A stretch of 64,000 bases of DNA from Tethya wilhelma (lineage: Eukaryota > Porifera > Demospongiae > Tethyida > Tethyidae). The stretch lies in NCBI GenBank assembly GCA_964030475.1, contig CAXIPT010000009.1:1815212-1879211 (forward strand), in the 5' to 3' direction. Positions 13,690-23,949 of the stretch are shown here, piece by piece (the stretch's first letter is position 1; each line of letters opens with the position of its first letter). The position numbers were made by a program, and so were the translations under genes. Below the pieces are notes generated by a model. It had not been told where the DNA came from. It worked only from the letters and a program-made list of their open reading frames with translations, and searched no databases.

Positions 13690-13755
<66 letters not shown>

Positions 13756-14252: not shown

Positions 14253-15509
14253 TCAGTTACCATTGGCTGCCAAACTCCAACTATTGATGCTACCATGGAC
14301 AACTGACCTTTGAACTTTACCCTCCCTCTCCAGCTGTTGGAGTATGACAAACGCTGTTGCTCTGGTTGGCATTCCCAAATGATCGGCAACATCTTTGGCT
14401 GTCATCGATGTGTTCTGCTTGAGAAGCTCAATAACCCTCCCTTGCTCTGTGAGTGCATCAGTGAGTGTGGTCTCACCAACAGCTGGCGGAAAACGAGCAG
14501 CCATCTTCTTTTTATTGGATGACTTTTTGGCACCATTATTGCTAGTTGCAATAGAAACAGATGCTGGTGATGTCATCTTTGTTTCTTCTTTCTCTGTGCT
14601 GGGATTGACATTGAGTTGTTTCTCTTCTTCTGGTATTTCAGCTTGACCACACCCCTTGCCTACCAAATTGATGGGATCGATAGTAGCTTTCTTTTCGGGA
14701 GTAGGTGGTACGTTTTGGTCATCTGTGGACTCTTGAATAGGCAATCTTGGTACACTTTCGGCAACCTCATTGGTTCCATGTGTAGTACCATTGCCATGGT
14801 TATCAGTGGATGGCGGTCCTGCTGATGCACGGTGCAAAACATCACTCGTTTTCACTGGGTCCATAACGATACGTTCACCGACTTGGCCTTTAACTGTGTA
14901 CAGAAGATCACCATCCCACGTAGCCACATCATTCACATGTGCTGTGCCTCCACTAGTGAGAGGTCTCCCGGCAAGGTGCCAGAGTGGTTTGGAATCAGGT
15001 TTCCTGATCAGTTTCACGAGACCATCTTCTTTGAGCTTGTAAAGAAGTGGATTTACATCACCTCTGCCTGGCAATTGTAACTTTTGTGCTATCGCTAGAG
15101 CAGAGACTGGTTCTGGGGAGTCTTGTAAAACCTGTAAAACTTGTTTTTCCAGTTCTTCGCTATTGTCCGATGATGCTGCAGCTGCAGCACCCATAGGAGT
15201 GCTGTTATCCGAGGGTATTACTGATGACTCAGCAGGAATGAGTTTCGGCAGTTCATCCACCACTCCTGGACCTGCTTGACTAGTGGTTGCTTGGCCACCT
15301 GGAATAACATGGTCCTGACGTAACGTCCATACTGGAGGACCCTTTCTACCACCATTGTCCATTTGTTCAACAATCTTTCTTCTCTCCATGTCATACAACA
15401 ACCTGTTGATTTCTTTCTTGGCCTTCCCCAGCTTTTCCACCAGGTCCTTGGCAGCCAGTGGTCCACATTCATGAAGGATCTTCACTATAGAGCTCTCTAG
15501 ATCCGCCAT
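14253..15509 (-). CDS. Three-domain Z-alpha (Z-DNA/Z-RNA binding) protein
   Basis: Intronless 418-residue protein with three Z-alpha-type winged helices and no other recognisable domain. Domain 1 (about 5-63) is canonical: K31, N35, R36 and Y39 in KKEINRLLY, and P58-P59-x-W61 in GPPVW, match the residues by which ADAR1 Z-alpha contacts left-handed helices (K169, N173, R174, Y177, P192, P193, W195). Domain 2 (about 118-180) keeps Asn and Tyr (DVNPLLY) and a KPLW turn. Domain 3 (about 350-415) has the fold pattern but lacks the Asn, Tyr and Pro-Pro, so it resembles the non-binding Z-beta type. Linkers are Ser/Thr/Gly-rich. It is divergent from an ADAR1-like gene 195 bp away. ZBP1 and fish PKZ are architectural relatives, but no RHIM or kinase is present. 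Z-nucleic-acid binding is inferred from conserved contacts; the downstream role is unknown. Confidence 0.88.
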   Translation of the reverse strand: MADLESSIVKILHECGPLAAKDLVEKLGKAKKEINRLLYDMERRKIVEQMDNGGRKGPPVWTLRQDHVIPGGQATTSQAGPGVVDELPKLIPAESSVIPSDNSTPMGAAAAASSDNSEELEKQVLQVLQDSPEPVSALAIAQKLQLPGRGDVNPLLYKLKEDGLVKLIRKPDSKPLWHLAGRPLTSGGTAHVNDVATWDGDLLYTVKGQVGERIVMDPVKTSDVLHRASAGPPSTDNHGNGTTHGTNEVAESVPRLPIQESTDDQNVPPTPEKKATIDPINLVGKGCGQAEIPEEEKQLNVNPSTEKEETKMTSPASVSIATSNNGAKKSSNKKKMAARFPPAVGETTLTDALTEQGRVIELLKQNTSMTAKDVADHLGMPTRATAFVILQQLEREGKVQRSVVHGSINSWSLAANGN

Positions 15510-15704
15510 AGTGATACTATCCTTTGTTTTGATCTGACAGCAGCCAAATGACTGTATGTTTTGTGAGGTTGCCTATCTGTGGCGCGTATTATCTTGCAGG
15601 GATTTTCCAAGGGAAACTCCCTTGCCTCAATGACGTCATTAACCCTTTCTGCGCTCTTCATCTTGGGGGCTTTTTCCCTTTTCGTGTAAAACTCGTGCGA
15701 TAAA
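15510..15704. promoter_or_regulatory. Bidirectional promoter with kB-like site and CRE between Z-alpha gene and ADAR
   Basis: 195 bp between the divergent start codons. GGGAAACTCC at 15611-15620 fits the NF-kB consensus GGGRNWYYCC. It sits inside a perfect inverted repeat, CAAGGGA-AAC-TCCCTTG. A palindromic CRE, TGACGTCA, lies at 15631-15638. No TATA box is seen. Joint induction of both genes by Rel/CREB factors is inference; the motifs themselves are directly visible. Confidence 0.6.
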
Positions 15705-18527
15705 GTGTCAAACTACAGCTTTATACGCTCAGCTATGTCGCAGAGAAATAAAAAAGTGGAACCAGCACACATTGTGGATCACATTAGGAGGAGCGGTCGA
15801 CCCTGTACCACATTGGAACTGGCACAGGCGTTCTCTGTCTCTCGTAAAGACATCAACCCAACGCTCTATAGGATGCTGGACCAAGGACAATTACGTAAGG
15901 TTAAGGATAGTCCCCCCGTTTGGAACATTGCCAATGCTAGTATGGGAATGAGGACTGGGATGGGAAGGGGGCGTGGTCGGGGTCGAAGGTCACCAACACC
16001 AACTTCATTATCTCAACCTGGGTACAAGTTCACAGCCACTCAAACAAAACCAACATTTCAATTCCCAGTACCTGGTACCGGAACCGGACATAGATCTCCA
16101 TCCAAATCCTCACCAACATCATCAGTGTCTTCAAGGAGTCCGCCAGTAATGGCGGCCACTGGAGGAGGGGGGTTACGGGGCAAGTTGCTGGAAGCATTGA
16201 GACAAAATGGTCGACAGATGACAGCCCTTGAGCTGGCAAGGTGTGTCGGTCTCAAAACACGCAAAGAAGTCAATCCTTATTTGTATAGTATGGAAAAGGA
16301 GGGGCTTGTTGCCATGGAAATGGGTGCAGGACCACCACCAAAATGGTCGCTACCTAATCAACTCACACCTATCAGTCTCATACAAAGTCAAAATTCAATG
16401 ATTCCTAGTGCAGCTGCTTCATCCACTGAAGTTGCCATGCAGACGGAGGAAGGCGGGCAACCTGCGGGAGAGGAAATGGACGTGGACCAGCCCGACGAAG
16501 AGGAAGAGGAGTCCCCGTTCCAACAGTTCCACGCTCAGTTGTCCCATATCCCCGAAGATAACATACAAGAGAGACTCCTAGTGGTGTTGGAAGCCACGCC
16601 CATGGAACAGAGAACTGATTTAGAACTGTCCAAGTGCATCGGAGGCAAGTTCACGAGGTCACAAATTCGACCGGTTTTAGAACAGCTAGCAAGTGAAGGT
16701 AGAGTAGCCAAGTCTCGTGGGTTTCCAGCAAAATGGATGATTTCTCATTCACCAGCGCCTACAGGTGCCCAAACATCAAATCCTGGTATTCCCATTCCAG
16801 TTGGAAGCCCCTCCCCTAATAAGGTAATAGTGTCTGTCCCTTGTAAGTTAATTAGGCCAATTATGCTGTCCTTTGTAAAGTAATTAGGCCACTATTATGT
16901 AATGTAATTATGCTAGTTTTGTTGTCCAATTCCCATTCTAAATGTACAGAGTGGTATTGGAATTGGACCTCCAAGTACTGGAATGGGACTCTCAGTGACT
17001 GCCGATGTCACAGACATGAATAGAAATCCTGTGAGTGTGTTGAGTGAGTTTTGCCAAGCAAACAAAATGGAACTGGTATTTGCAGAACTCCGTGAGTTTG
17101 GTCCACCTCACCGCAAGCACTTTGTCATTGCTGCACAGTTTGGAGGAGAAAGCTTTGAAGCTGAATCAACCAACAAGAAAGAGGCTAAGAGAATGGCGGC
17201 TGATTTAGCTCTACAGAGCCTCAAACTGCGACAAGTTGACGTCTTTCCAACTTCAAAACCAACTGTTTCAGTTCCTTCTCAAGTCGGAGCTGGTCCTTTA
17301 CAACCTGATTCATTTTTCGACAAGATAGCAAAATTGAGTCACAATTTCTACAACCAACTACAATGTACCATAGATGCTCCACAGCCAGGTCGCAAGGTCA
17401 TAGCAGGGTTTATAATGGAGGATACAAACACTGGAAGTCTCTCCGTTGTTTCCATGGGGAGTGGCACTCGTTGCATCACAGGGGATCACATGAGTCTGGA
17501 TGGCCTTGTGGTGAATGATTCTCACGCTGAAGTGGTTGCTAGGCGATCTCTGATGAGATTCTTTTATGCTGAATTGATGAATTTTTTCCGGGGAGGCACA
17601 AAATCTGAAAATAACAATACAATCTTTATCGCTAGTCAGAAATCTCCGAACAAGGCACGTGTTCGGGATAATTTCAAGTTTCACTTGTACATCAGCACAG
17701 CTCCGTGTGGTGACGGGGCACAATTCTCTCGAGGGGACAAATTGAACCGAGACCCCCCTAGTGATACGACCCACCGACCGACAATGAGCACCAAAGCTCA
17801 GGGAGTCCTTCGAACGAAAATGGAAGGAGGAGAGGGGACCATTCCGATAGGGGACGAGACCCGACCTCAGACGTGGGATGGGATTATGCAAGGAGGGAGG
17901 CTACGAACAATGTCCTGTAGCGATAAAGTCGGGCGGTGGAATGTCATCGGGCTGCAAGGATCGTTGCTAACCCACTTCATGGAGCCCGTCTACATGTCCT
18001 CCCTCACCCTCGGCAGTCTCCACCATCACGGGCATCTCTCCCGAGCTGTCTGTTGTCGTTTTGCCGAGTTAGAAGCCAACAACACACTCCCGGCAGGTTT
18101 CCACGTGAACCATCCCTTGCTGGGAAGAGTTCAAGGTGGAGATGAGATGAAACGTCACACGGAGAAGACGAGTCAGTTTAGTCTCAACTGGGCAATGGGA
18201 GACGAGAGAGGGGAGCTAAATGACGGGGGGACCGGTCGTCCTGTGCTTCCCACGTCTGTTCCAAAGTCGCAACAAGCTACAATGTGTTCGCGTATTGCTA
18301 AAGCTCGTATTTTTGAGTTGTTTTTGCAGCTTGTCCAAGCCACAGGTCAAGCTGATCTTTGCAACGTGAAGAGTTATAAAGAAGCTAAAGAAGGAGCTCG
18401 AGAGTTTCAGAATGCCAAGGCAGTGTTGTGTAGTTTCTGTGAGGGGAAAGGCTACGGAGTTTGGATGAAGAAGCCAGTGGAAGAGGAACAGTTTGATAAG
18501 AGTGTACTGGATAGGTTGAATAACTGA
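15705..18527 (+). CDS. ADAR: ADAR1-like double-stranded RNA adenosine deaminase with Z-alpha domains
   Basis: Converts adenosine to inosine in double-stranded RNA. Two exons, 15705-16823 and 16950-18527 (phase 0). The start may be 15705 or the ATG at 15735 (898 or 888 residues). Domains in order: Z-alpha 1 (KDINPTLY... SPPVW), an RGR/Ser-Pro linker, Z-alpha 2 (KEVNPYLY... PPPKW), a third winged helix without the Asn/Tyr contacts (IRPVLEQL... FPAKW), one dsRBD (NPVSVLSEFCQANK... KKEAKRMAADLALQSL), and the deaminase domain. Catalytic features are intact: HAEVV (zinc His and proton-shuttle Glu), STAPCGDG, SCSDK (zinc cysteines), and GGEGTIP with the base-flipping-loop Glu. Vertebrate ADAR1 has three dsRBDs; this has one. 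The product should be active. It is convergent with the ALDH gene, 138 bp apart. Confidence 0.95.
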
Positions 18528-18665: not shown

Positions 18666-21576
<2,911 letters not shown>

Positions 21577-22571: not shown

Positions 22572-23141
22572 GTCATGCAGTCAAGAGACTTGACTACAAC
22601 TGTCCAAGAGATCACACGACATCTCCAAGACAATGTCCTGAACTCCATCTGCACTCAGGCCTGTAATTACACCATCACCAACGGAAGGTTTGACTGTGCT
22701 GGTGATCCTGACTCAGACAGCGTCATCTTCCTGGCTACCCTCAACCACCAGAGGAGCAGTGAGACCCTCGGCCAGTCTGCAGGGGATCTTGTCAATGGAA
22801 TTGGAATGTGGAAAGGTGGAAGTCCTACGATTGTTGTCTCCTCACAGTCGCTGAGGGTGGATCCAGGATGTGATGTCACTGCTAGTACTATGTGTGGAGG
22901 TCAAGTGGATGAGGGTCAGAGTTCAATCGGTCCAGTTGTGGGTGGAGCTGTTGGGGGGGTGGTTGTGGTTGTCATACTGGTAGTCCTGATTGCCGTGATT
23001 ATTGCTTTGGTCGTGAGTAGATCAGGAAAGACCAAAGACAGGTATATTTGTCCTAAAGACCAATTTCTTCAGTTTGTCTTACTCACACACCTACCCTCTT
23101 ACTCACACAAACACACACACACANACACACACACACACACA

Positions 23142-23192
<51 letters not shown>

Positions 23193-23949
23193 GTAGTCAA
23201 GAGACTTGACTACAACTGTCGATCAGATCACTCAACATCTCCAAGACAACGTCCTAAACTCCATCTGCACTCAGGCCTGTAACTACACCATCACCAACGG
23301 AAGGTTTGACTGTGCCGGTGATCCTAACTCAGACAGTGTCACCTTCCTGGCTACCCTCAACCACCAGAGGAGCAGCAAGACTCTCGGCCAGTCTGCAGGG
23401 GATCTTGTCAATGGAATTGGAACGTGGAAAGATAGCAGTGATACCATTGTTGTCTCCTCACAGTCGCTGAGGGTGGATCCAGGATGTGATGTCACTGCCA
23501 GTTCAACGTGTGGACGTCAAGAAGATGGAGGTCAAAGTTTAATTGGTCCAATTGTGGGTGGGGCAGTTGGAGGTGTGGTTGTGGTCATCATCCTGGTAGT
23601 CCTGATTGCAGTAATTATTGCTTTGGTCGTGAGTAGATCAGGCAAGAGCAAAAAAGACAGGTATGTTTTCATCAATAATGTTTGGACCCTCACACACACA
23701 CACACACACACATACACACACACACACACACAAATGCACTGATTTCCCAGCACTGAAGTTCACGAGCTACATAGCAACAGGGCTTACGAGGAGGTAACCC
23801 GCCGGAACCCTTCCTATGGCGTGAGCAAGGCACTGCCAGCAATTCCAAACAATGAGAAGAATGCTGCCTACGAGAAACCAGAGAGCGTCCACTACTACAC
23901 TGCTATGGATCGTGGGGAGGGGGAGGCACAGTATGACTATATCAACTGA
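21763..23949 (+). CDS. Single-Ig transmembrane receptor 1 with tyrosine-rich tail
   Basis: Cell-surface receptor. Exon 21763-21835 encodes a signal peptide (MATFTLYLALWSLSVTTVFG). 21954-22262 encodes one Ig domain with Cys in LSCVA, the core Trp in FTWKRR, and DAGTYIC. 22355-22419 is short (FQLRFIGVGHCGTWLS). 22581-23041 encodes an ectodomain segment with paired cysteines (NSICTQACNYTITNGRFDC) and a Gly-initiated membrane helix (VVVVVILVVLIAVIIALVV). 23751-23949 encodes a cytoplasmic tail with Tyr motifs AYEEV, PSYGV, AAYEKP and QYDYIN. A second version of the TM exon lies at 23197-23660. Both TM exons start in phase 0 and end in phase 2, so joining them creates a stop; only one can be used per transcript. 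No family name is recognised beyond the Ig fold. Signalling through tail tyrosines is inference. Confidence 0.75.
22581..23041 (+). other. TM exon, version a, of Ig receptor 1
   Basis: 461-nt exon bounded by AG (phase 0) and GT (phase 2). It is paired with version b at 23197-23660 (464 nt), which is very similar but differs at scattered residues, for example DPDSDSVIF versus DPNSDSVTF. The intervening intron is (CA)n with a single N at 23124. Confidence 0.7.
23197..23660 (+). other. TM exon, version b, of Ig receptor 1
   Basis: 464-nt exon. It has the same splice phases as version a and encodes the same layout (ectodomain, Gly linker, membrane helix, SRSGKSKKDR stop-transfer). Splicing a to b reads into TGA within four codons, so the two are alternatives, or are allelic copies laid end to end by the assembler. 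Confidence 0.7.

Follow-up and report, generated by a model that had tools for sequence, protein, structure and literature searches.

Organization of the locus

The window, a 64-kb stretch of DNA (64,000 nucleotides), contains two divergent genes with little DNA between them, a Z-alpha protein gene on the minus strand and an ADAR1-type editor gene on the plus strand (Table 1). The Z-alpha family profile (PF02295, curated cut-off 21 bits) scored 72.9 bits against the stand-alone protein and 76.9 bits against ADAR exon 1, with two domains per protein individually above the cut-off. The sequence-only reading had described a divergent, neighboring pair, both members bearing Z-alpha, and had proposed this profile search as a check. 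The matches and the gene order bear the description out, except that the spacing, put at 195 bp, measures 225 bp from ATG to ATG. The genome profile search of the 124.6 Mb assembly gave four Z-alpha matches above the cut-off, all of them within the pair, and found no Z-alpha gene outside it.

Table 1. Coordinates of the genes, domains and sequence motifs at the locus, numbered within the window
Feature	Position	Strand	Basis
Stand-alone Z-alpha gene, single open frame, 418 aa	14253..15509	-	ORF; Pfam z-alpha 72.9 bits; relatives P0001, P0002, P0018, P0019, P0020
Stand-alone domain 3 (residues 350-415), winged helix	14265..14462	-	HTH_IclR/MarR_2 matches; residue table; structure model
Lysine-rich segment KKSSNKKKMAARFP (residues 329-342)	14484..14525	-	read by eye from sequences
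Stand-alone domain 2 (residues 116-180), Z-alpha	14970..15164	-	genome search 30.8 bits; residue table
Stand-alone domain 1 (residues 1-64), Z-alpha	15318..15509	-	genome search 41.7 bits; residue table
Gap between start codons, candidate bidirectional promoter	15510..15734		sequence
kappaB-type site GGGATTTTCC	15599..15608	+	motif search
kappaB-type site GGGAAACTCC	15611..15620	+	motif search
CRE palindrome TGACGTCA	15631..15638		motif search
ADAR exon 1, 363 aa	15735..16823	+	start from alignment with relatives; donor and joined frame
ADAR domain 1, Z-alpha with N173, Y177, P192, P193, W195 equivalents	15756..15938	+	genome search 40 bits; residue table
ADAR domain 2, Z-alpha with N173, Y177, P192, P193, W195 equivalents	16161..16358	+	genome search 38.4 bits; residue table
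ADAR domain 3, winged helix; R and E replace N173 and Y177	16536..16748	+	residue table; structure model
ADAR intron, GT...AG, inferred	16824..16949	+	joined frame open over 888 aa
ADAR exon 2	16950..18527	+	joined frame
Double-stranded RNA-binding domain	17028..17222	+	Pfam dsrm 49.1 bits; same position in a second analysis
Adenosine deaminase domain with HAE, PCG, SCSDK motifs	17451..18476	+	Pfam A_deamin 335.3 bits; ADAR1 alignment

The stand-alone Z-alpha protein

Three Z-alpha domains had been claimed for this protein. Two of them, domains 1 and 2, are confirmed, while the C-terminal third is a winged helix that keeps one of nine Z-contact positions, W195. Domain 1 retains the equivalents of K169, K170, N173, R174, Y177, P192, P193 and W195, with T191 replaced by G. 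Domain 2 retains N173, Y177, P193 and W195 and has K at the position of P192. The contact set N173, Y177, P192, P193 and W195 is thus complete in stand-alone domain 1, as it is in ADAR domains 1 and 2, and is incomplete in the third domain of either protein.

The modelled folds agree with Z-alpha crystal structures, the PKZ Z-alpha being among the closest solved folds, and stand-alone domain 2 scores to the ZBP1 Z-alpha 2heo_A. In one structure comparison list, Z-alpha and MarR-type winged helices rank equally; absence of a family from these lists was not used to exclude it. No enzyme or signalling domain was detected at E 0.001 in any of six stand-alone-type proteins (two of them partial frames), and a Pfam search of the stand-alone protein found no protein kinase domain. 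The protein is predicted to bind Z-form RNA or DNA through its Z-alpha modules.

Relatives and linkage

Five database proteins are related to the stand-alone protein (listed in Table 1). An alignment shows a linker stretch common to these relatives. By eye, the lysine-rich segment resembles the terminal segments of P0002, P0019 and P0020, ends that the alignment leaves out of register. According to the residue table, N173 is kept in both Z-alphas of relatives down to 29% identity, and Y177 is absent from domain 1 in four of the six stand-alone-type proteins. The latter loss, together with the lack of P192 in domain 2, may mean that Z binding is weakened in some lineages.

The stand-alone-type protein P0001 and the ADAR-type protein P0003 have the same contig data (3 contigs, the longest of 4515189), which places them on the same contig. 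They are therefore probably linked, though not necessarily adjacent. In length, the contigs of P0002 (3807), P0018 (3131), P0019 (900166) and P0020 (273894) agree with none of those of the ADAR-type matches found, in a database clustered at 90%, with the 8000 best candidates scored in one search and intron-split genes escaping; this proves neither separation nor linkage for these four of the five relatives. The sequence-only reading depended on Z-alpha being present in the stand-alone protein and on the pair not being absent and unlinked in all related species. The former has been found, and the second pair of relatives suggests linkage elsewhere.

The ADAR gene

The gene at 15735-18527 has one intron and codes for 888 residues comprising two good Z-alpha domains, a degenerate winged helix, a dsRBD and a deaminase. 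That a single protein carries Z-alpha, the dsRBD and the adenosine deaminase depends on the inferred intron (16824-16949); in an alignment, the open frames of relatives meet a stop at about the same place. HAE, PCG and SCSDK, the catalytic motifs of the deaminase, are all present upon alignment with ADAR1. The Pfam matches, the residue table and this alignment uphold the earlier description of an ADAR1-like editor with its own tandem Z-alpha domains. The layout of three ZB, one dsRB and one AD domain is the same as that reported for Amphimedon queenslandica ADAR1 (PMC4323055).

The intergenic region

Sites in the gap were named by motif consensus forms that we take to be the standard ones. The arrangement of two kappaB-type sites and a CRE occurs once in 124.6 Mb, although it was picked after having been seen. 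The density of kappaB sites is higher in the window (12 in 64 kb) than in a 200-kb sample (10), which, like the post hoc choice, weighs against the arrangement. The motif search found no ISRE, Inr, GAS, AP-1, SP1, E-box, CCAAT, YY1 or either form of ETS site in the 225-bp gap. The same search picked up a single GAAANNNGAAA and a TATAAA on the minus strand.

In A. queenslandica, 45% of genes lie head to head and 11,379 have start sites within 1 kb, according to the available text of PMC4773876. With head-to-head genes so frequent in a compact sponge genome, the divergent arrangement alone is weak evidence for co-regulation. The kappaB/CRE cluster adds new support for inducible co-regulation, despite its post hoc choice, and it is plausible that the stand-alone and ADAR genes are co-regulated from the candidate shared promoter.

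Alternative explanations

A viral origin of the stand-alone gene was rejected as a leading idea. Many giant viruses have predicted Z-alpha proteins (PMC11298590, in its accessible part), and the gene might have been acquired from one of them. However, two viral-contig scans, one per alignment and each reaching only sequences with one of two short peptide patterns, confirmed no viral relative, and such a gift is highly improbable. The gene might instead have arisen long ago by inverted duplication of the N-terminal exon of ADAR, staying adjacent by inertia and now having an unrelated or minor role. Both genes share the layout of two Z-alphas followed by a degenerate winged helix, head-to-head genes are abundant in compact sponge genomes (PMC4773876, as far as its available text goes), and in a BLAST comparison among the domains the best match of stand-alone domain 2 outside its own group is ADAR domain 2 (48.1 bits). 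Nevertheless, the collinear pattern between the two proteins is only partial, and stand-alone domain 3 is best matched by ADAR domain 2 and not by ADAR domain 3. A domain tree leaves the origin undecided. It was calculated from 43 rows and 72 columns after removal of a truncated ZBP1 row and of the P0005-P0011 domains, which nearly duplicate retained rows; nine of its 40 inner branches are well supported and 16 are open, and the stand-alone second domain forms one group weakly (60/47) while the first does not form one. The persistence of N173 in relatives down to 29% identity speaks for a kept function. Neutral neighborhood appears quite unlikely.

Two other readings give the protein a function of its own. 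ZBP1 has tandem Z-alpha at its N terminus, and the stand-alone protein, which has the same arrangement, might detect viral or self Z-RNA and trigger defence or cell death via an unrecognised partner, with ADAR1 as a brake. The score of domain 2 to the ZBP1 Z-alpha is consistent with this, and the linker stretch common to the relatives could hold an interaction motif. However, the protein lacks a signalling domain, and no RHIM was matched in it or in the whole assembly with a 22-position model, by which so short a motif can be missed. A ZBP1-type RHIM output is thus not supported, the absence being a soft one, and a ZBP1-like sensor is doubtful. Z-prone repeats might also be the site of action of the protein, which would then influence chromatin or transcription rather than RNA defence, as suggested by its lysine-rich segment and by a third winged helix resembling bacterial regulators. 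(CA)n tracts, which can form Z-DNA, are abundant at lengths of at least 10 units (33 in the window and 42 in the 200-kb sample). Yet the gene adjoins that of an RNA editor and has the same type of Z-alpha, and a nuclear Z-DNA reader is likewise unlikely.

A proposed two-gene Z-nucleic-acid unit

The reading that we tentatively prefer, at somewhat less than even confidence, is that of a two-gene unit, in which an editor and an enzyme-free reader are co-fired from one promoter and tune the visibility of self double-stranded RNA. Via its two Z-alphas, the editor would engage double-stranded RNA where this adopts the Z form, and deaminate adenosines there. The reader would be a mostly disordered chain carrying two Z-alphas, the lysine-rich segment and a winged helix without Z-contact residues. 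We infer that it binds the same Z-prone RNA (or DNA) as the editor, and so competes with, buffers or recruits it. The 225-bp promoter, NF-kappaB/CREB-responsive in appearance, would fire both genes, which would rise jointly in response to infection or stress. This would probably set the amount of self double-stranded RNA visible to the RIG-I-like receptors that the genome has as well. The genome encodes Rel-homology exons and an IRF gene and has 11 above-cut-off matches to RIG-I C-RD. In planarians, editing restrains RLR-linked dsRNA responses, according to the accessible text of PMC8797187.

A more far-reaching form of this proposal is unlikely to hold. It states that, outside vertebrates, a dedicated enzyme-free Z-RNA reader and ADAR1 already share a single NF-kappaB/CREB-type promoter in head-to-head order, the two being co-induced and opposing or assisting each other over which self dsRNAs RIG-I-like receptors see, a balance independent of, or before, ZBP1. 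With no further Z-alpha gene detected in the assembly, knockdown of either gene would isolate half of the Z response.

Comparison with known Z-alpha proteins

ADAR1 is the best solved relative of the plus-strand protein, and both have Z-alpha, dsRBD and an intact deaminase. In the alignment ADAR1 shows three dsRBDs, whereas the plus-strand protein has one and, in addition, a third winged helix that lacks the Z residues. The stand-alone protein resembles ZBP1 in being enzyme-free with tandem N-terminal Z-alpha, but differs in having no detected RHIM, an extra C-terminal winged helix and a gene beside ADAR. With PKZ it shares tandem Z-alpha and a close fold, but not the kinase domain. Poxvirus E3 and cyprinid herpesvirus ORF112, which could compete for Z-RNA, are likewise Z-alpha proteins that lack an enzyme. 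In contrast to these, the stand-alone gene, with no viral relative confirmed by the two pattern-limited scans, appears to be the animal's own, beside its editor.

ADAR1, ZBP1 and PKZ were the sole known eukaryotic Z-alpha proteins in a 2023 review (PMC10523160, in its accessible part), and a 2024 study predicts further ones (PMC11298590, likewise). The anthozoan and other proteins predicted there also fall outside the three, and some of these families share the change of Y177 to F with several of the relatives, but the available text gives no sponge protein or ADAR neighbor among those found. A Z-alpha-only gene beside ADAR was not found described in the literature surveyed, largely titles and abstracts. 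Grice and Degnan searched for ZB domains regardless of ADAR genes and may have met the stand-alone gene. A conserved Z-alpha protein that has no enzyme domain and is encoded next to ADAR1 would add another type to the cellular Z readers, and the position of its gene makes it testable whether Z-RNA sensing is coupled to editing outside vertebrates.

The gene pair

The window lies at G000:C9:1815212-1879211 in an assembly (G000) of 124.6 Mb and 204 contigs. The gene for the stand-alone Z-alpha protein and the ADAR1-type gene form a real pair. They are arranged head to head, as the sequence-only reading had it, and the start codons are separated by 225 bp rather than by its 195 bp. The Pfam profile check it had proposed found z-alpha in both products.

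Features of the gene pair and of the gap between its start codons
Feature	Position	Strand	Description
Stand-alone Z-alpha gene	14253-15509	minus	single open frame, 418 aa; Pfam z-alpha 72.9 bits
ADAR1-type gene	15735 (ATG)-18527	plus	joined frame 888 aa, final stop only
ADAR exon 1	15735-16823	plus	Pfam z-alpha 76.9 bits
ADAR intron (inferred)	16824-16949	plus	joined frame stays open
ADAR exon 2	16950-18527	plus	Pfam dsRBD 49.1 bits, deaminase 335.3 bits
kappaB-type site GGGATTTTCC	15599-15608	plus	consensus match
kappaB-type site GGGAAACTCC	15611-15620	plus	consensus match
CRE TGACGTCA	15631-15638		consensus match

Among solved structures, the exon 2 protein is closest to ADAR1 (370.5 bits), ahead of ADAR2 (318.2 bits). 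Its catalytic deaminase motifs HAE, PCG and SCSDK align with ADAR1. Adenosine-deaminase matches occur at three further places (G000:C1:3223407-3226103, C1:21376378-21377322 and C1:3831778-3833087), the first of which has two dsRBD matches upstream and is ADAR2-like in look.

Domain structure

AlphaFold models of the stand-alone protein and the ADAR exon each contain three winged helices, with pLDDT mostly 80-94 within domains and low in the linkers. The pTM values are low (0.25 and 0.28), so that the models give no mutual arrangement of the domains. Z-alpha structures are among Foldseek's best domain-sized matches for both (for example PKZ Z-alpha, whose TM by target length is 0.92 against the stand-alone protein and 0.83 against the ADAR exon), and winged-helix regulators tie with them in a second Foldseek comparison.

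Nine Z-contact positions (K169, K170, N173, R174, Y177, T191, P192, P193, W195) were located in an alignment of 62 domains and three references. Stand-alone domain 1 has eight of the nine, T191 being G; domain 2 has N173, Y177, P193 and W195, with K for P192; domain 3 retains W195 only. ADAR domains 1 and 2 have the equivalents of N173, Y177, P192, P193 and W195, while domain 3 has R for N173 and E for Y177. Judged by these residues, each protein comprises two Z-alphas and a third winged helix lacking the Z signature. The tandem Z-alphas proposed for the editor are thus borne out, and two of the three proposed for the stand-alone protein stand.

N173 and Y177 occur together in 16/16 rows of ADAR domain 1, the window included, and in 15/16 of domain 2 (the exception being P0016, an ADAR-type protein); domain 3 has neither in all 16. 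Among the six stand-alone proteins N173 is invariant in domains 1 and 2. Y177 is present in two domain 1 sequences (F in three, S in one) and four domain 2 sequences (F in two), and P192 of domain 2 is always replaced (K in five, R in one).

The linker at stand-alone residues ~195-229 (14823-14927, minus strand), around LLYTVKGQVGERIVMDPV, recurs in relatives. Its model, of low confidence, has strands and a helix, and the stretch may be a binding motif or a small module of no recognised type.

Relatives and origin

A search of 5.8 billion proteins at E 0.01 with the stand-alone protein returned P0001 (54% identity, 418 aa) and P0002 (29%). Profile search, scoring the best 8000 candidates, added P0019 and P0020; P0018 surfaced with the ADAR exon as query and is placed in this group by its linker. 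At E 0.001 these five match z-alpha and otherwise generic winged-helix models only. P0018 and P0020 are apparently partial. Since P0002, P0019 and P0020 stop shortly past a lysine-rich segment, a third domain may be encoded by another exon. The ADAR exon matched 16 proteins, 15 of them ADAR-type.

P0001 and the ADAR-type P0003 carry identical figures ("3 contigs, longest 4515189") and therefore very probably share a contig, which does not imply adjacency; the other four stand-alone relatives have no contig figure in common with the ADAR-type matches seen. The pair is probably not absent and unlinked in all relatives.

In a domain tree that is weak overall, ADAR domain 3 (60/99) and stand-alone domain 2 (60/47) each form one group, and no source for the stand-alone domains emerges. 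Their best scores outside their own groups are to the PDB ADAR1 Z-alpha for domain 1 (40.0 bits) and to ADAR domain 2 for domains 2 and 3 (48.1 and 32.7 bits).

PF02295 has five matches in the assembly, searched exon by exon so that an intron-split Z-alpha could escape. The four above cut-off all fall within this pair; the fifth (17.8 bits) has an internal stop. Two particular genes would be neighbours by chance roughly once in ten thousand, by our estimate for tens of thousands of genes, which makes common origin or selection likelier than chance. For Amphimedon queenslandica 40,122 gene models are reported, with 45% of genes head to head and 11,379 having start sites within 1 kb (PMC4773876); given such frequency, the divergent order is unremarkable on its own.

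The shared gap

The motifs in the gap, a candidate bidirectional promoter, are called kappaB and CRE by their consensus forms. When the gap was simulated 20,000 times with a first-order Markov model, 0.03% of the copies had at least two kappaB sites. Twenty sampled stretches of the assembly, 200 kb in all, contain 10 kappaB sites, no two of them within 225 bp, and five CREs. Pointing the other way, the window itself is kappaB-rich, with 12 non-overlapping sites in 64 kb against those 10 in 200 kb, and 19 matches against a mean of 7.8 in shuffles. The CRE alone is unremarkable: the window has two, a number reached in 20 of 100 shuffles. Across the 124.6 Mb, a CRE with two kappaB sites is found at this one place only (40 bp, 15599-15638), and the reversed control gives no match. 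The composite is a lead rather than a test, because motif and spacing were picked after being seen. Rel-homology exons occur at two sites in the assembly, which also has an IRF gene. A. queenslandica NF-kappaB is described as activating transcription once C-terminally processed (PMC13042239).

(CA/TG)n tracts, which can take the Z form, number 33 of at least 10 units in the window (0.52 per kb) versus 42 across 200 kb of sampled assembly (0.21 per kb); those at 13691-13754 and 18882-18909 each lie downstream of one gene of the pair. At 22575-23742 lie two open frames that overlap and whose extracellular and membrane-like segments are nearly identical, which suggests a tandem exon or gene duplication.

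Possible function

RIG-I C-RD has 11 above-cut-off matches in the assembly, so that double-stranded RNA sensing is probably well developed here. Ten lie within 49 kb, at G000:C5:1273197-1322018 (loci L015, L016 and neighbours), in open frames of 668-811 aa that form a tandem array of RIG-I-like genes. In planarians ADAR knockdown is reported to raise dsRNA-response genes, and double knockdown of a RIG-I-like receptor and adar1 to rescue lethality (PMC8797187). Comparative editomes led to the proposal that editing first served to protect against dsRNA derived from repeats, and sponge editing sites are described as enriched where antisense transcription occurs (PMC9989829). Against this background we tentatively favour an enzyme-free Z reader that would compete with or guide ADAR1 on Z-prone dsRNA and might be co-induced with it.

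The ZBP1 parallel of the sequence-only reading needs correcting. RHIM, a motif of 22 model positions that a search can overlook, has no match in the assembly, and a ZBP1-like sensor is unlikely. A nuclear Z-DNA reader is improbable to the same degree, and a neutral duplicate slightly more doubtful. Viral origin is very improbable. That the two genes are functionally paired is still an inference.

The ADAR1 of A. queenslandica is described as having three ZB, one dsRB and one AD, with the same layout in a sea urchin (PMC4323055), so that this arrangement, which fits the ADAR gene of the window, is not peculiar to sponges.
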